From: Lysobacter antibioticus HS124
GTDB lineage: Bacteria > Pseudomonadota > Gammaproteobacteria > Xanthomonadales > Xanthomonadaceae
DNA: 55,767 bases
NCBI RefSeq assembly: GCF_000336385.2
Contig: NZ_HG424473.1
Location: forward strand, 1-55,767
Direction of reading: 5' to 3'
The notes beneath the pieces were generated by a model. It was not told where the DNA came from and did no database searches. It worked only from the letters and a program-made list of their open reading frames with translations. The translations under genes were made by a program, and so were the position numbers. This document shows, in pieces, positions 48,890 to 55,767 of this stretch (position 1 is its first letter; every line of letters begins with the position of its first letter).

Positions 48890-48922
48890 CCCGCGGACGA
48901 CACCCGCAGGTTGCCGGTCCAG

Positions 48923-48950
48923 CGGGCGCCGCCCAGTGGCGCCCGTTCTT
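48923..48950 (+). terminator. Terminator after the asparaginase-domain gene
   Basis: CGGGCGCC / GGCGCCCG stem with a 7-nt loop followed by TTCTT, 33 nt after the stop codon. Confidence 0.7.
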
Positions 48951-49415
48951 CGAAACGATTCCGCAACGCCGCTTGCGGCACCCGCCCGCTACTCGGGCCC
49001 TCGCACCGGATCGCGGCGCCCTCACACGGCGATAGCTACAGCTCCCCTCCTCCAGCCGCAACGCTGGTCTTTTCCAGTCCGCGACTCACCCTCGCCCACC
49101 CGGTCGCCTCCCGCCATGCGCGGCGGGGAAACCGACGCGTATGGCGCATCGGCCCCGCTCGGCAGCGCCATGCACCGGCGCCTGGGCATACTTGGCGTAC
49201 CGCCCGGGGCCTGACCAGTCCCAGCAGCGGGTTGGGCTGGCGGAGTGTGCGGATGAGCGGTTCGCGTTCCCAGGCAAGCCGGGCGCAAGAATGGGCTTTT
49301 CTGCACTGATCCCCCCCAAAGCCCCGCTCGTCGCCCTGAGCACGGCCAAGGGTGGCCTAATTTGGTGATAGAAATCACAATTCAAATTGCTTCCAAGCCT
49401 GGAGCCGCTTCTACC
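48951..49415 (+). other. Region upstream of the ECF sigma gene
   Basis: 465 bp with no convincing gene. Most is GC-rich; the last 60 bp (about 49355-49400) drop sharply in GC and contain a CRP/Clp-type palindrome (49364-49379) and a second palindrome, CAATTCAAATTG (49378-49389). This AT-rich patch probably holds the promoter of the sigma/kinase operon. No standard -35/-10 pair is obvious, so an alternative sigma factor, perhaps the encoded one, may be used. Confidence 0.5.
49364..49379. promoter_or_regulatory. CRP/Clp-type binding site
   Basis: GGTGA-TAGAAA-TCACA fits the TGTGA-N6-TCACA consensus at nine of ten half-site positions. In xanthomonads this sequence is bound by Clp, a CRP homologue that responds to cyclic di-GMP. 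It lies 36 nt before the sigma-factor ATG, a position expected to repress if it overlaps the promoter. Confidence 0.55.
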
Positions 49416-50036
49416 ATGCCCGCCGCCCAACCCGTGTGGTCCCTGCCGGATGCTACGGTCGAGTCGGTGACCGTCCTGCTGCACCAGGCCCGCGACGGAC
49501 GCAGCGATGCCTGGGACCTGATCTACACCCGGATCTACCAGGACCTGCACCGGCTCGCCCGCGCCCAGCTGCGCCAGCGCCAGCGCCGCGCCCCCCTGTC
49601 GCCGACCTCGCTGATCAGCGAGGCCTGGCTGAAGATGGCCGGCGCCGCAGCCTCGGCCGAGAGCCGCTTCCATCTCATCGCCCTGATCGCCCGCGCGATG
49701 CGCTACGCGATCCTCGACGAAACCAAGAAGGCCGTCGCCGACAAGCGCGGCAGCCGGATCGAATTCGTCGCCCTTGAGGGCGAGCATCGGATCGGCGAGA
49801 ACGCGCGGATGGAGCAACTGGTGCTGATGGACCAACTGCTGGAGCATCTGGGCAAAGTCGACGAACGGCTGGTCTCGATCGTCGAGCTGCGCTACTTCGG
49901 AGGCTTGAGCGACAAAGAGATCGGCCACCTGCTGGGAGTCGGCGAAGACCGGATCCGACGTGAGTGGCGTACCGCGCGCAGCTACCTGATCGCACGCCTG
50001 GGCCAGGGCGACTCGCTGGACCTTCCAGCGAACTGA
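49416..50036 (+). CDS. ECF-type sigma factor paired with a Ser/Thr kinase (ECF43-like)
   Basis: 206 residues. Region 2 spans about 18-88 and region 4 about 140-200 (IVELRYFGGLSDKEIGHLLGVGEDRIRREWRTARSYL). In region 2.2 the usual acidic DAED that contacts RNA polymerase is replaced by LSPTSLISEAWLKM with Thr64. This is typical of sigma factors activated by threonine phosphorylation by a neighbouring kinase (EcfP-PknT of Vibrio, EcfK-PknS of Xanthomonas). No anti-sigma gene is present. ATG 49416 has GGAG 11 bases upstream. Nine bp separate it from the kinase gene. Confidence 0.9.
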   Translation: MPAAQPVWSLPDATVESVTVLLHQARDGRSDAWDLIYTRIYQDLHRLARAQLRQRQRRAPLSPTSLISEAWLKMAGAAASAESRFHLIALIARAMRYAILDETKKAVADKRGSRIEFVALEGEHRIGENARMEQLVLMDQLLEHLGKVDERLVSIVELRYFGGLSDKEIGHLLGVGEDRIRREWRTARSYLIARLGQGDSLDLPAN

Positions 50037-50045
50037 ACGGCGCGC

Positions 50046-52955
50046 ATGAGCTCGGTCGACGCCCGCGTCCTGTCCCTGTTCCGCGCCTACGTCGACCTGG
50101 AGCCGCGACGTCGGTCGCGCTTCCTTGAGGATGCGCGCCGCGACGACCCGCAGGCCCACGTCCTGCTGGCGGCGATGATCGCCGCCGACTCGGGCGAGCA
50201 CGCGCTGGATCTGTCGCTGCCGTCGCTGTCCGACGGGCTGCGGACCGGCAACGAGGACGCTGCCGACGCCGACGAGAACGACGAAAGCGAGGGCGAAAAC
50301 CGCATCGGCACCCGGCTCGGGCCATGGCGGTTGGTGCGCAAGATCGGCCAGGGCGGCATGGGCATCGTCTACGAAGCGATGCGCGACGACCGCCAGTACG
50401 AGCAACGCGTCGCACTCAAGTGCGCACGCGCCGAGCTGTCGTCGCCGCGCCTGAGCGAAGCCTTGCTGGCCGAACGCCGCCATCTGGCGCGCCTACAGCA
50501 CCCCAATATCGTGCCCTTGCTCGACGGCGGCGTGGATGCTCAAGGCCATCCCTGGTTCGCGCTGCAATACGTCGAAGGCGAAGCCATCGATCTGTGGTGC
50601 GATCGCCGCCGCAAGAGTTTGCGCGATCGCGTCGCGCTGCTGGGCCAGGTCTGCGACGCGCTGGCCTATGCGCACGCCCAGGGCGTGGTGCATCAGGACC
50701 TCAAACCGTCCAACCTGTTGGTCACCGACGACGGCCGGGTGCAGTTGCTCGACTTCGGCCTGTCCGCGCCGCTAAACCTGGGCGCGGACACGCCGGCGCC
50801 GCCGGTCGCTCTCACGCCCGGCTACACTGCCCCGGAGATCGTGTTCCGAGGCGCCGCGCCGTGCATCGCCTCGGACCTCTACTCGCTGGGCGTGGTCCTC
50901 GCACAACTGCTGACCGGCGACGGCCCTTCGCGCTCCCTACTGGCACAGGCCAGCCAATGGCTGGCGACGACGAGTTCCGAGGCGGGCGCCGAACGTCTGG
51001 TCCGGTCCGCCGCGACTGCGACGTCCGAAGCGATAGCGAACCGAGGGCTGTCGGACCGCCGCTCCCTGGCCAAGCAGATCAGCGGCGATCTTGCGGCGAT
51101 CGTCGAACGCTGCCTACGCGCCGATCCGACGCAGCGCTACCGCAGTGCGGGCGAACTGGGCGAAGATCTGCAACGCTGGCTGCAGCACCGGCCAGTGCGC
51201 GCTCGCGACGGCGGCCGACTGTACCGGACCGGGCGTTTTCTGCGCCGTCACCGGCTCGCGATGGGGTTGGCGGGAGTGACCGCGCTGACTGCGGCGATCG
51301 GCGGCGGCGCGACCTGGTGGCAGGCTTACCGGGTCGAACGCGAAACCCAGGCCACCCTCGCCGTAAGCCGGCTGTTCGAGGAAACCCTGGGCTCGGCGAC
51401 CCTGTCCGGGCTCAGCGACACTCCGTTCTCCTCCAGTGCCTTGCTGCGCGACGTCGAAACCAAGGTCCGAGGACTCGATTTATCGGCGCAACCGCGCACA
51501 CTCGCCGGTGCGCTGACCTCGCTGGCGCGCAGCCGTGCCGTGATCGGCGACTACGCCAGCGCCACCCGCCTGGCCGACGAAGCCGCTCGCCTGCTCGACC
51601 GCGACGGCGCACCTTCGCTGGAAACCCGCGCCACCCTCGCCTCGCTGCTGAATCTGCAGGCGCGCCATCGCCAGGCGCGCAGTGTCGCCGAGCAGACTTT
51701 AGATCAGGTTCCCCACGATCAGCTCCATCGGCCCCTGCGCGTGCGTCTGCTGACCGAGATCGCACGCAGCGATTGGGAACTGTTGCATCATCGCGACGCG
51801 CAGGGTGCGCTCGACGCCGCACTGGCATTGACCCGGAATCAGCCCGAACGCGGGCCCTACGCCGAGTTGCTGACCTTGCGTGGCTACTGGAACGCTCGCC
51901 TGTTGAACCTGCCTCAAGCCGAGGCCGATTTTCGCCGCGCCATCGCGGTCGCCACCGACGCGCAACCGGCCTTGGCCAATCAAGCGCGCGAGAAACTCAT
52001 CCAGTTGCTGACCCTGCAGGAACGCTTCGCCGAAGCGCAGGGCCTGGCCTTGCAGCTGCTCGAACAGCGTCGCCGCTCGCTCGGCGACCGCCATCCCGAT
52101 ACCGGACGCGCCTGGGTGGCGCTGGCAGACAGCCAGTGCGGCGGCGGCCGCCCCGCGGATTGCCGGGCCTCGATCGAGCGCGGCAAGGACATCCTGCGCG
52201 CGCGCTACGGCGAATCGCATCCCGAGTACGCCGAGGCCTTGCGCGTCTCGACGCAACTGTACTTCCTCGACGAACACAGCTACGCCGAACGTCTGTCGGA
52301 GATGCGGCGATCGGCATCGATCCTGCAAGAATCTTACGGACCAGCACACGAAGCCGCGCTACGGGCCCGAGCCGATCTGGGCGTGATGCTGCTGCACCGC
52401 AAGCCGGCATCCGTCCCGGACGAAGAGCAGCGGCGGTTGCGAGACGAAGGTCTGGCGCTGCTGGATTCGGTGCTGTCCGCGTCCGACCGGCAGAAGGTGC
52501 CGATCTTCACTCCCAAGCTGTACTACGCCATCGCAATCGCCCGGCGCAATCGCGGCGATGACCGCGATACGGCGCGACGACTGCTCGTCGAAACCCAGAC
52601 GGACGCCGAACGCTATTTCGGCGACTCGCGCGGCTTGCATCTGCGCATTTCCTATTATCTGGCCTTGCTCGCCTATATCCAGGGCGATTTGGCCACGGCA
52701 GATTTGCAGATGGCGGACATCGCGGCGCAAGCCGAAACCGCTCCCCCTCACCTTCGCATTCGGCTCGCGCTTTGCAACATTCTCAATGTTCGCGCCAATA
52801 TCGCCTTGCATCGCGGCGACCGCGACAGTGCCCGCAACCACCTCATCCGCCTGCGCGATACCGCCATGCGCTGGTTCGGACCGGAACATCCGTGGGTCAA
52901 GCAAGCCCAGCGCGACCTGGACTTGCTGGCGCGTACCGGCCGATTCCCTACCTGA
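50046..52955 (+). CDS. Membrane Ser/Thr protein kinase with C-terminal TPR-like sensor
   Basis: 969 residues. After a helical, acidic N-terminus (1-90) comes a kinase domain (about 92-385): glycine loop IGQGGMGIVY, Lys125, catalytic Asp218 in HQDLKPSN, DFG at 236-238, and TAPE. The HRD arginine is Gln, so it is a non-RD kinase. One membrane segment (about 404-426) leads to a C-terminal region of some 540 residues with weak TPR-like helical repeats, predicted periplasmic. The pairing with the ECF sigma gene implies that it senses an outside signal and phosphorylates the sigma factor. Substrate and signal are inferred. Confidence 0.9.
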   Translation: MSSVDARVLSLFRAYVDLEPRRRSRFLEDARRDDPQAHVLLAAMIAADSGEHALDLSLPSLSDGLRTGNEDAADADENDESEGENRIGTRLGPWRLVRKIGQGGMGIVYEAMRDDRQYEQRVALKCARAELSSPRLSEALLAERRHLARLQHPNIVPLLDGGVDAQGHPWFALQYVEGEAIDLWCDRRRKSLRDRVALLGQVCDALAYAHAQGVVHQDLKPSNLLVTDDGRVQLLDFGLSAPLNLGADTPAPPVALTPGYTAPEIVFRGAAPCIASDLYSLGVVLAQLLTGDGPSRSLLAQASQWLATTSSEAGAERLVRSAATATSEAIANRGLSDRRSLAKQISGDLAAIVERCLRADPTQRYRSAGELGEDLQRWLQHRPVRARDGGRLYRTGRFLRRHRLAMGLAGVTALTAAIGGGATWWQAYRVERETQATLAVSRLFEETLGSATLSGLSDTPFSSSALLRDVETKVRGLDLSAQPRTLAGALTSLARSRAVIGDYASATRLADEAARLLDRDGAPSLETRATLASLLNLQARHRQARSVAEQTLDQVPHDQLHRPLRVRLLTEIARSDWELLHHRDAQGALDAALALTRNQPERGPYAELLTLRGYWNARLLNLPQAEADFRRAIAVATDAQPALANQAREKLIQLLTLQERFAEAQGLALQLLEQRRRSLGDRHPDTGRAWVALADSQCGGGRPADCRASIERGKDILRARYGESHPEYAEALRVSTQLYFLDEHSYAERLSEMRRSASILQESYGPAHEAALRARADLGVMLLHRKPASVPDEEQRRLRDEGLALLDSVLSASDRQKVPIFTPKLYYAIAIARRNRGDDRDTARRLLVETQTDAERYFGDSRGLHLRISYYLALLAYIQGDLATADLQMADIAAQAETAPPHLRIRLALCNILNVRANIALHRGDRDSARNHLIRLRDTAMRWFGPEHPWVKQAQRDLDLLARTGRFPT

Positions 52956-53153
52956 GCCCGCAGTATCACGCCGGTCGTGCAGCGTCGACAAAAGTCCGTT
53001 CACGACGCCCGGGGGGACGGCGTGGCGACGCTAGGCTTCAGCGCCTGACACAGAAAACGCGTACGCAGCGCGGCGAACGCCGGCGCTTACGACAACGTGG
53101 AACAGCGGTAAAGCGTCGCGTCCGGCTCCTCATGCCGACGCAACCGCCGCTTC

Positions 53154-53184
53154 GGCAGGGGCGGGCCGGGGGCCCGCGCCTGCC
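53154..53184 (-). terminator. Hairpin between the convergent kinase and M28 genes
   Basis: A 14-bp stem with one mismatch (GGCAGGGGCGGGCC / GGCCCGCGCCTGCC) and a 3-nt loop, 16 nt past the M28 stop. No T-run, but the only structure available to separate the convergent units. Confidence 0.5.
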
Positions 53185-53200
53185 GGACCGCACACAGCGA

Positions 53201-54859
53201 TCAGAAGGTGATGCTCCAGGTATCGATGCGGCCGGTGTCCTGGCTCGCGTTGTCGTTCACCCGCAGCTTCCAGGTGCCGTTGAGGGGTTCGCTGGACAGG
53301 TTGAAGTTGAAAGTGCCGCTGAGGTTGTCGGCGCTGCCGCCGGCGCGGTTGCTGATGTTGTAGAGCGAGCCGTCCGGCGCGACCAGATCGACCTTCAGGT
53401 CGCCGCGGTAGGTATGAACGATGTTCACCGACACCGAAGCGCTGCTCGGCGCGTTGCCGGTCCGGCCGGAGACGGTGATCGGGCTGTCGACGGTGGCGTT
53501 GTCGTTGATCGCGTAGTCGGTGCCGTTGGTGTAGGTCTGCGTGCCCGGACCCGGGCCCGGACCGGTACCGGCGGTCTTGCCCAACTCGCCCAGGAAGGCC
53601 AGGCCCAGCTTGGCGAAGGGCACGCTGTTGCTCGCCGAGTTGCCCATGTTGGACAGCTTGTCGTTGGGCGTGTGGATCGAGGAGAAGTAGCCGCCGCTGC
53701 TGGTGCCGCCTTCGAAGTAGATCGCCGCCGGGAAGCCGGCCGAGGTCCAGGAGGCGTGGTCGGAGCAGCCGTAGCCGCAGGTGTAGCTGCCCAGGGTGCC
53801 GCCGAGGTAGGTCGAATGCAGGTCGCGCAGGAACTGCTGCAGGGCCCCGTTCGAGTAGTCGCTGACCAGACGCACCTCCGGCGTGCCGCTGGTGCGGTAG
53901 TTGGTCATGTCCAGCTGCAGCACGCCGACCACGTTGATGCCGCGGTTCTTGAAATCGGTGGCGATCGCCTTGGACCCGCGCAGGCCCACTTCCTCGGCCG
54001 CGTAGCCCATGAACTTGATCGTGCGCTTGGGCTTCCAGCCGCTGGCCAAGGCGATGCGCGCGACTTCGGTCAGGGTGGCGATGCCGGAGGCGTCGTCGTC
54101 GGCGCCGGGCGCGTTCATCGAATCGCCGCTGCCGGTGCTGGAGATCGAATCCAGATGCGCACCCAGCACCACCACCTCGTTCGGCAGGTCGGTGCCCTGG
54201 ATGGTCAGAATCGCCGAAGGCTGGGTCGAGCAGGTCGTGCAGCCGGTATAGAGCTCGGCGCTGACGTCGCTGCGGCCGTTGGCCAGGCTCAGCCAGTTGT
54301 CCTTGATCCAGGTCGCCGAAGTGCGGCCGTGGGTGGAGGCGTAGTAGCGGTTCGGATACGAGGTCGACAGATGGTTGATGGTGCCGCGAATGTTGGCTTC
54401 GGCGACCTGGCTCAACCACGGCGTCACCGTGGCCTGGTTGTCGATGGTATAAGTCGCGAACTGGGTGGCCATCGCCTGCGCGGTGCGGTCGTTGCGGACG
54501 AAAGCCTCGGCTTCTTCGCGGCTGTCGAAGGCGATGTAGCCGCCGCAGCGCTTCTCTTTCTCGTGCACGTGATGGGTCACGTCGGTCAGCTGGTGAGTCT
54601 GGAGTTCGGCGATCACCAGCTTGGCGCCGGCGCCGTTCTGCACGCCGAGCGAATTCTTGGCCAGGGTCTTGACTCCGGCGTCGTAAGTCGCGCGCGAGGT
54701 GACGATGAACACCAGCTTGAACGGATCCTCGCCGGGGCTCAGCCGCGACTGGTCGTGGACATGGGCCGGGACGGCGGGCGTTTGCGCAGCGGCCGGCGCG
54801 ATAGCGGCGGACAAAGCGAGAGCGAGCAGAGCGGGCAGCGGGGCGACGTGCTTGTTCAC
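53201..54859 (-). CDS. Secreted M28 aminopeptidase with C-terminal P domain
   Basis: 552 residues from GTG 54859, preceded by AGGAGCG. Signal peptide about 1-24 (LPALLALALSAAIAPAAAQ). A propeptide region leads to an M28 di-zinc peptidase domain: ligands in VVLGAHLDSI (His), GADDDASG (Asp), AAEEVGLRG (Glu-Glu), LQLDMTNY (Asp) and IHTPNDKL (His), as in Vibrio leucyl aminopeptidase. A Gly-Pro linker leads to a proprotein-convertase-type P domain (about 450-552, ending GRIDTWSITF). It is probably exported by Sec and type II secretion. The cysteine pairs CTTC and CGYGC suggest disulfides. Confidence 0.93.
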   Translation of the reverse strand: MNKHVAPLPALLALALSAAIAPAAAQTPAVPAHVHDQSRLSPGEDPFKLVFIVTSRATYDAGVKTLAKNSLGVQNGAGAKLVIAELQTHQLTDVTHHVHEKEKRCGGYIAFDSREEAEAFVRNDRTAQAMATQFATYTIDNQATVTPWLSQVAEANIRGTINHLSTSYPNRYYASTHGRTSATWIKDNWLSLANGRSDVSAELYTGCTTCSTQPSAILTIQGTDLPNEVVVLGAHLDSISSTGSGDSMNAPGADDDASGIATLTEVARIALASGWKPKRTIKFMGYAAEEVGLRGSKAIATDFKNRGINVVGVLQLDMTNYRTSGTPEVRLVSDYSNGALQQFLRDLHSTYLGGTLGSYTCGYGCSDHASWTSAGFPAAIYFEGGTSSGGYFSSIHTPNDKLSNMGNSASNSVPFAKLGLAFLGELGKTAGTGPGPGPGTQTYTNGTDYAINDNATVDSPITVSGRTGNAPSSASVSVNIVHTYRGDLKVDLVAPDGSLYNISNRAGGSADNLSGTFNFNLSSEPLNGTWKLRVNDNASQDTGRIDTWSITF

Positions 54860-55262: not shown

Positions 55263-55298
55263 CGCTCTGGACGACGGCGATGAAGCGCAAAGCGCCGG

Positions 55299-55767
55299 TC
55301 AGAAGGTGAGGCTCCAGGTGTCGATGCGGCCGGTGTCCTGGGTCGCGTTGTCGTTGACCCGCAACTTCCAGGTGCCGTTGAGGGCTTCGCCGGACAAGTC
55401 CTTGACGAACGTGCCAATGACGTTGTCGGCGCTGCCGCCGGTGCGGTTGTGCAGGTTGTAGAGCGTGCCGTCCGGCGCGACCAGGTCGACCTTAATATCG
55501 CTCTTGTACGTGTGATAGATCGTTACCGACACCGAGGCGTTGCTCGGCGCGTTGCCGCTGCGGCCGGACACGGCGATGCTGCTCTCGACGGTGGCGTTAT
55601 CGAGGATCTGCACGTCGTTGTCGTTGCGATAAGTCTGGGTGCCGCCGCCGTCGCTGACGGTGACCGAGGCGGTCTTGCTGTGAGTCGCGCCGCCGTCGTC
55701 GGTAACGGTCAGAGTGACGGTGTAGGTGCCGGCCGCGGCGTAGGTCTTGCTCGGGCTGGTCGCGGTC
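55299..55767 (-). CDS. 3' end of a secreted PKD/P-domain protein (partial)
   Basis: The C-terminal 155 or so residues of a gene whose 5' part lies beyond the right edge. The visible part starts in a PKD domain (SKTYAAAGTYTVTLTVTDDGG, in part), then a Gly-rich linker and a P domain ending GRIDTWSLTF. The P domain is nearly the same as that of the adjacent M28 enzyme (for example GTWKLRVNDNATQDTGRID against NDNASQDTGRID). Such modules follow catalytic domains of secreted peptidases, so a protease is likely, but the catalytic part is not visible. Confidence 0.85.
   Translation of the reverse strand, partial: TATSPSKTYAAAGTYTVTLTVTDDGGATHSKTASVTVSDGGGTQTYRNDNDVQILDNATVESSIAVSGRSGNAPSNASVSVTIYHTYKSDIKVDLVAPDGTLYNLHNRTGGSADNVIGTFVKDLSGEALNGTWKLRVNDNATQDTGRIDTWSLTF

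Follow-up and report, generated by a model that had tools for sequence, protein, structure and literature searches.

The first 55,767 nucleotides of contig NZ_HG424473.1 of Lysobacter antibioticus HS124 (GCF_000336385.2; forward strand), referred to here as the window, encode an extracytoplasmic function (ECF) sigma factor and, on the same strand, a Ser/Thr kinase with a tetratricopeptide repeat (TPR) tail, the stop codon of the former and the ATG of the latter being separated by 9 nt. A threonine of the sigma factor, Thr64, lies in region 2.2, where ordinary ECF factors carry an acidic motif, and the pair is probably best explained as a one-step signalling switch of the kind described for EcfP-PknT and EcfK-PknS. 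The features of the locus, all on the plus strand, are as follows.

49365-49378 (+): CRP/Clp-type palindrome GTGA-N6-TCAC, found by pattern scan, its first base lying 51 nt before the start codon of the sigma gene
49399-49404 (+): CTGGAG, probable ribosome-binding site of the sigma gene, kept in the alignment of the window with three orthologues
49416-50036 (+): ECF sigma factor gene, 206 aa, TIGR02999/PF07638 (ECF43-like), from profile searches, alignments and tree
49599-49622 (+): region 2.2 contact motif S62-P63-T64-S65-L66-I67-S68-E69, from alignments with EcfK and relatives
49749-49796 (+): linker between sigma2 and sigma4, residues 112-127, from alignments; predicted local distance difference test (pLDDT) score below 50
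50046-52955 (+): Ser/Thr kinase gene with TPR tail, 969 aa, from the open reading frame, profile search, motifs and relative of known structure
50328-51143 (+): kinase domain, residues 95-366 (PF00069, 143 bits; best solved relative PDB 9eed)
51255-51311 (+): probable membrane helix, residues 404-422 (follows a basic stretch; Kyte-Doolittle maximum 1.55)
51312-52952 (+): probable periplasmic TPR region and putative sensor, residues 423-969 (PF13424, TPR_12, two stretches)

The sigma factor scored 147.1 bits against TIGR02999 (Sig-70_X6; curated cut-off 126.15) and 116.7 bits against PF07638 (cut-off 21.1), and its start codon at 49416 is supported by the lack of protein-level conservation in the DNA 5' of that position when aligned with orthologues. 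Its region 2.2 reads LSPTSLISEAW, beginning with Leu61, and Thr64 (codon ACC, 49605-49607) occupies the third place of the DxED motif. A first-pass annotation, made from the sequence alone, had described Pro-Thr-Ser in place of the acidic motif, which is borne out by S62-P63-T64-S65 and by the lack of any Asp or Glu from residue 62 to 68. Its reading of the acidic contact motif as replaced held only in part on alignment: the DxxD acids are gone, but Glu69, the Glu in the QE part of the DxxDxxQE pattern, is retained, and the loss of acidic contact residues is accordingly true for DxxD and not for the whole pattern. The predicted structure of the protein (mean pLDDT 67) places Thr64 at the start of a helix spanning residues 63-78, in the first turn of the region 2.2 helix. 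Compared with the PDB, this model gave no match at E 0.001 or better; the top 50 rows, with E values from 0.02 upwards, held many ECF sigma factors (SigK, sigmaE, AlgU, SigL, SigW, SigH) together with other sigma factors and unrelated helical proteins.

For comparison with EcfK, the sigma factor of genome G274 was taken as the Xanthomonas citri protein, because it has all the checked residues named in PMC13147305 (Y29, R33, Q49-A-T51-E52, H55, T104, T106, S108 and S110) and adjoins a kinase to which the aligned stretch of PDB 9eed is 100% identical; 9eed is thus probably the PknS kinase domain. Alignment with this ECF43 member, as the first-pass annotation had proposed, placed Thr64 opposite EcfK Thr51 in all three alignments made. 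With the DxxD acids replaced and a Thr at the phosphosite, a Ser/Thr kinase gene adjoining and the family cut-offs passed, we infer ECF43 membership from family, motif, neighbouring kinase and flanks rather than from the published ECF43 group model. The same annotation had stated that a kinase stands where an anti-sigma factor would be expected, and this agrees with the Pfam assignments: the flanking genes encode an asparaginase-like protein and an M28 peptidase, and no anti-sigma gene was found among the Pfam-annotated flanking genes, a result obtained without a search aimed at anti-sigma models.

The kinase motifs are intact (Lys125, Asp218 and DFG at 236), and kinase activity is expected because the catalytic Asp is preserved; this residue, Asp218 of His216-Gln217-Asp218 (codon 50697-50699), is the one named in the first-pass annotation, which was likewise correct on the 9-bp spacing. 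The best solved relative, PDB 9eed, matched at E 4.3e-43. HQD in place of HRD was found in five of the 35 kinase rows compared, namely the window, its three orthologues and L048; the remaining rows have HRD, HGD, HSD or HCD, apart from three second kinases that lack the Asp. The distinction between RD and non-RD kinases bears on activation-loop control, which may differ between HQD and HRD kinases. The protein, annotated as a membrane kinase, has a probable membrane helix of modest hydrophobicity. The most hydrophobic 19-residue stretch is 404-422 (mean 1.55), and a segment of the kinase core comes close at 1.47; membrane insertion therefore rests mainly on likeness to PknS. The TPR region is mostly helical in a low-confidence model of the kinase (mean pLDDT 50).

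The pair is conserved. Orthologous sigma factors with 99% (G239, a second genome of the species), 90% (G008) and 76% (G017) identity retain the upstream synteny and the order of sigma gene followed by kinase gene, which argues that the pairing is not due to chance, and 18 of the 20 genus genomes searched, the window's own included, gave a match at 1e-36 or better. In a named relative, Lysobacter antibioticus, the kinase and the sigma factor are 64% and 76% identical, respectively. The genome itself (5.14 Mb, 183 contigs) contains 11 PF07638 matches, four of them strong: the window gene on contig C34 and paralogues on C60, C97 and C99. Behind each of these genes lies a kinase gene whose product matches the window kinase into its TPR region, part of the C97 kinase being masked in the record. 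In a tree of 109 sigma factors, a branch supported at 100/99 set apart 20 named rows, 19 of them from the genus and one from G031, a genome of a different genus within the family, along with L084, which likewise comes from G031. The window sigma belongs to this Lysobacter branch, all 20 named members of which have Thr at the phosphosite position, whereas the sigma factor taken as EcfK groups with the C99 paralogue (98/89).

Conservation of the threonine was assessed in 105 sigma factors, of which 23 represent the window, the loci of the genus, G031 and the paralogues within the genome, and 82 a survey of 80 stretches among the listed matches outside the genus, taken best-first down to G058:C19 and leaving out seven listed rows near that entry and those below it. 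The residue at the position of Thr64 is Thr in 93, including all of the 23, Arg in six, Ser in three, and Cys, Ile and Val in one each. No same-strand kinase lies close downstream of 33 of the 105. Fourteen sigma factors lack a kinase anywhere in the fetched stretch, and 12 of these keep Ser or Thr (two of the 12 lie near contig ends, with little sequence downstream), so the threonine need not mean an adjoining kinase. Ser or Thr was present in 70 of the 72 sigma factors with a downstream kinase, compared with 24 of the 31 that lack one and have at least 1,500 bases of room (p 0.003) or, without the room filter, 26 of 33 (p 0.004). Recomputation with a kinase-core profile, in place of one covering part of the TPR region, changed the distances for seven rows and left the totals as they were. 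This association was nevertheless rejected as evidence, since the seven exceptions form one clade and independent tree pairs give p 1. The clade in question (L087, L103, L104, L106, L133, L157 and L159) carries Arg or Cys at the phospho-threonine place, in an NTR or DTC motif, and has no close same-strand downstream kinase; it fits a joint loss of threonine and kinase, but one clade counts as one event, and it is possibly a kinase-independent offshoot. Asp and Glu are absent from positions 62-65 and 69 in 14 of the 105 sigma factors, all on the window's branch and none of them the window gene itself; these relatives read SPTSLINRTW, or nearly so, and Arg stands at the position of Glu69.

The linker between sigma2 and sigma4 separates the window sigma from EcfK, in which Thr106 acts as a second switch in X. 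citri according to section 8 of PMC13147305. Phe117 and Ala119 of the window sigma occupy the positions of EcfK T104 and T106, on which three alignments agree, and the Ser or Thr that marks the EcfK sub-type at the latter is therefore missing; the corresponding residue is Pro in G239 and Asp in G008 and G017. Across the 105 sigma factors this column holds Ser, Thr, Asp or Glu in 82, close to the 76.9% that PMC13147305 gives for ECF43. Glu121 and Glu123 follow Ala119 in the linker. They stand opposite EcfK S108 and S110 in the pairwise alignment, but both multiple alignments place H124 and I126 there, and their treatment as firm equivalents was dropped, only the T104 and T106 equivalences being firm. 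With Ala at the Thr106-type site, Thr64 is probably the sole switch; the sequence suggests a sigma factor controlled at one site, whose linker may carry a permanent charge.

Upstream of the pair, GTGA-N6-TCAC is the sole exact match to this pattern in the window, 0.54 being expected from shuffles; by count alone the palindrome is nothing special, and its weight comes from place and conservation. The window, G239, G008 and G017 share an exact copy in the same position, with three different spacers (TAGAAA in the first two, then TAACAA and CTTTCG), although the remaining upstream DNA of G017 is barely alignable, and a one-mismatch copy lies at a similar place in L047 (G006) and L046 (G007). Upstream scans covered 300 nt before the aligned sigma start plus 60 nt. 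Within that stretch no exact match was found for any of the 82 survey sigma factors, nor any for the paralogues on C60, C97 and C99 with one mismatch allowed; a site with one mismatch lies farther up in L082, and in L049 an exact match lies beyond the stretch scanned. The pattern also arises by chance, as 24 of 171 fetched loci hold one, nine of the 24 being the conserved sites just described, met in overlapping loci. The consensus for CRP-type regulators is TGTGA-N6-TCACA, and the genome encodes a Clp-like protein of the CRP family (L164), which we take to be Clp, known in xanthomonads as a receptor of cyclic di-GMP (c-di-GMP). A CRP-family regulator, most likely Clp, probably contributes to the level of the pair through the putative upstream site. 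A search of the plus strand from 48900 to 53200 found no sigma-70 promoter, and the palindrome could serve activation or repression.

The upstream neighbour, about 500 bases before the sigma gene, is a short asparaginase-like gene (PF00710; 48308-48889, plus strand; 193 aa) that covers the N-terminal asparaginase domain only and has homologues in the corresponding position in G239, G008 and G017. Downstream, on the opposite strand, lies the gene of an M28 peptidase with a P-domain. Two P-domain copies about 80% alike occur on the minus strand, one (53198-53580) ending the M28 peptidase gene and the other (55296-55678) ending a reading frame cut off by the edge of the window. Large surface-like proteins with DUF11/SpaA domains adjoin the pair in G008 (L043:2-3901) and G017 (L044:3-3128), where DUF6923 is also present, and another branch member in G015 (L081:1930-5649). 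A phmmer search for this protein gave matches in four of 103 sources. As a regulon target this neighbour was rejected, the best homologue in the window species (76%), one of 13 matches in the genome, being on another contig.

Taken together, these data allow a mechanism to be proposed for the pair, phospho-activation of the window sigma being a proposal by homology and the best mechanism available. The periplasmic TPR region would sense an envelope or contact signal; the cytoplasmic kinase domain, once activated, would phosphorylate Thr64, which lies in the opening turn of that helix of region 2.2; and the phosphate would supply the negative charge that ordinary ECF factors have from DxED, allowing the sigma factor to bind the beta' subunit of RNA polymerase. 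Glu121 and Glu123 may lend the linker permanent charge, and a CRP-family regulator, most likely Clp, probably tunes the level of the pair at the upstream palindrome. The first-pass annotation had already put forward threonine phosphorylation as the activating switch, a claim upheld as far as the family, the aligned Thr and the adjoining kinase go and limited by several observations that weigh against it. The threonine is family-wide rather than peculiar to the window gene; Ser or Thr persists in most sigma factors that lack a kinase in the fetched stretch, and two with a downstream kinase have Ile or Val instead; the association between residue and kinase does not outlast the correction for ancestry; contact with the polymerase through Glu69 is still conceivable; the score of the membrane helix is only moderately high; the residue at the Thr106 site is Ala, and the linker alignment past it is uncertain. 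In addition, EcfK T51A still complements in X. citri, showing that Thr51 is not essential alone (section 8 of PMC13147305).

Several of these observations would suit a different role for Thr64. Ser/Thr-type residues commonly cap helices, and Thr64 could be mainly a structural cap, with polymerase bound via Glu69 and other polar residues and the kinase acting by docking, through another Ser (62, 65, 68 or 83) or through a third protein. The modelled helix beginning at residue 63 would suit an S-P-T-S cap, Glu69 is present, and the retention of Ser or Thr in 12 of the 14 sigma factors without a kinase in the fetched stretch and the in vivo function of EcfK T51A (PMC13147305) point the same way. 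Against this, PMC13147305 and PMC8999054 report that EcfP and EcfK are phosphorylated at the equivalent of Thr64, by PknT within an STTA motif in the former and by PknS at Thr51 in the latter, and that the phosphomimic T51E raises expression of type VI secretion system (T6SS) genes without PknS; moreover, the 14 branch relatives have Arg even at the Glu69 position and no acid at the checked positions. A mainly structural threonine is considered unlikely. More improbable still is cross-talk among the four sigma-kinase pairs of the genome, in which a kinase other than the adjoining one would do most of the phosphorylation of the window sigma. The presence of four such pairs in one genome and the 33 of 105 sigma factors without a close same-strand downstream kinase would be compatible with such an arrangement, but the window and its three closest orthologues all keep sigma factor and kinase side by side, and these kinases share HQD.

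The pair might instead be the functional counterpart of EcfK-PknS and drive T6SS genes elsewhere in the genome, given the same gene order and kinase-TPR architecture and the one match to VipA, the type VI sheath gene, on contig C19 of the same genome. No type VI genes adjoin the pair, as had been annotated, and encoding within a T6SS cluster, which characterises the EcfK sub-type, is thus not found here. The 19.9 kb around the VipA gene (L062) held no match to the window sigma or kinase at E 1e-5. EcfK itself groups with the C99 paralogue (L060; sigma gene at about 2304-2918), the genome's closest relative of the putative X. citri protein, whose recognition helix is nearly that of EcfK (ERDLRFARAWL vs ERDLRFARVWL) and differs from that of the window sigma (RREWRTARSYL). 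The C99 sigma is consequently the better candidate for a T6SS regulator, and such a role for the window pair appears very improbable.

Within the preferred reading of the pair as a phosphorylation switch, variation among relatives allows a further, tentative proposal. Lysobacter and a close relative may have a branch of their own in which phosphate would be the sole contact charge in 14 members and the window sigma a Glu69-bearing intermediate, with gating by c-di-GMP-responsive Clp making a two-input switch and a second kinase, dead in some cases, perhaps serving as adaptor or brake; this composite is possible, though rather doubtful. In the relatives represented by L049:2350-3705 (minus strand), L051:9762-11054 (plus) and L052:10235-13000 (plus), two kinase genes follow the sigma gene. 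The second kinases of L049 and L051 are pseudokinases that have lost the Gly-loop, the Lys, the catalytic Asp and the DFG Asp, and their frames end before any membrane helix or TPR tail; that of L052 has HGH for HRD. In L053-L058 two tandem kinases, both with HRD and DFG kept, lie behind the sigma gene, the first kinase of L053 being spread over more than one reading frame. L045:6361-10197 departs from the common arrangement: its sigma gene (53% identical) and kinase gene lie on opposite strands, facing one another.

Signalling in which a kinase phosphorylates a sigma factor directly was discovered recently, and few cases have been characterised; the two models, EcfP and EcfK, differ in the roles of the region 2.2 and linker sites. 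Nature provides a gradation among the window sigma and its relatives, some keeping one acid at the checked positions and others none; together with what would be a natural single-site version, this makes the claim that phosphate replaces the acids testable with a small set of mutants. An initial clue to the timing of expression of the pair comes from the conserved CRP/Clp-type site. Lysobacter species are described in PMC6653060 as predatory bacteria of biocontrol interest, and the regulon may for this reason be of practical interest. Among the papers listed by literature searches, none gave an account of such a sigma-kinase pair in Lysobacter, which does not prove absence.

Sigma-kinase pairs are already known from Vibrio and Xanthomonas, and the window pair stands on its own Lysobacter branch. 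Like EcfK-PknS of X. citri (ECF43), it combines a sigma factor of the same family with an adjoining Ser/Thr kinase bearing a TPR tail, and has Thr at the same place in region 2.2. It differs in that EcfK has QATE, with Glu52, and the linker switch T106 in place of SPTS and Ala119, PknS has HRD in place of HQD, and EcfK belongs to another branch and lies in a T6SS cluster (PMC6653060), whereas no T6SS genes occur near the window pair. With EcfP-PknT of Vibrio parahaemolyticus (ECF43), compared by its description in PMC8999054, it shares a motif without acid at DxED (STTA and SPTS, respectively) and, probably, a single region 2.2 switch; the regulon there is the polymyxin response, and on the Lysobacter side a CRP/Clp-type site stands upstream. 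Family, threonine and adjacent kinase are also common to the TIGR02999 sigma factors adjoining TPR kinases, including the C60, C97 and C99 paralogues, which belong to other branches and carry the motifs DATA, QPTA and QATS. To these known systems the present analysis adds a branch peculiar to Lysobacter and a close relative, the absence of the second site, relatives with no acid at the checked positions, the CRP/Clp-type site, and the kinase and pseudokinase pairs of some relatives.

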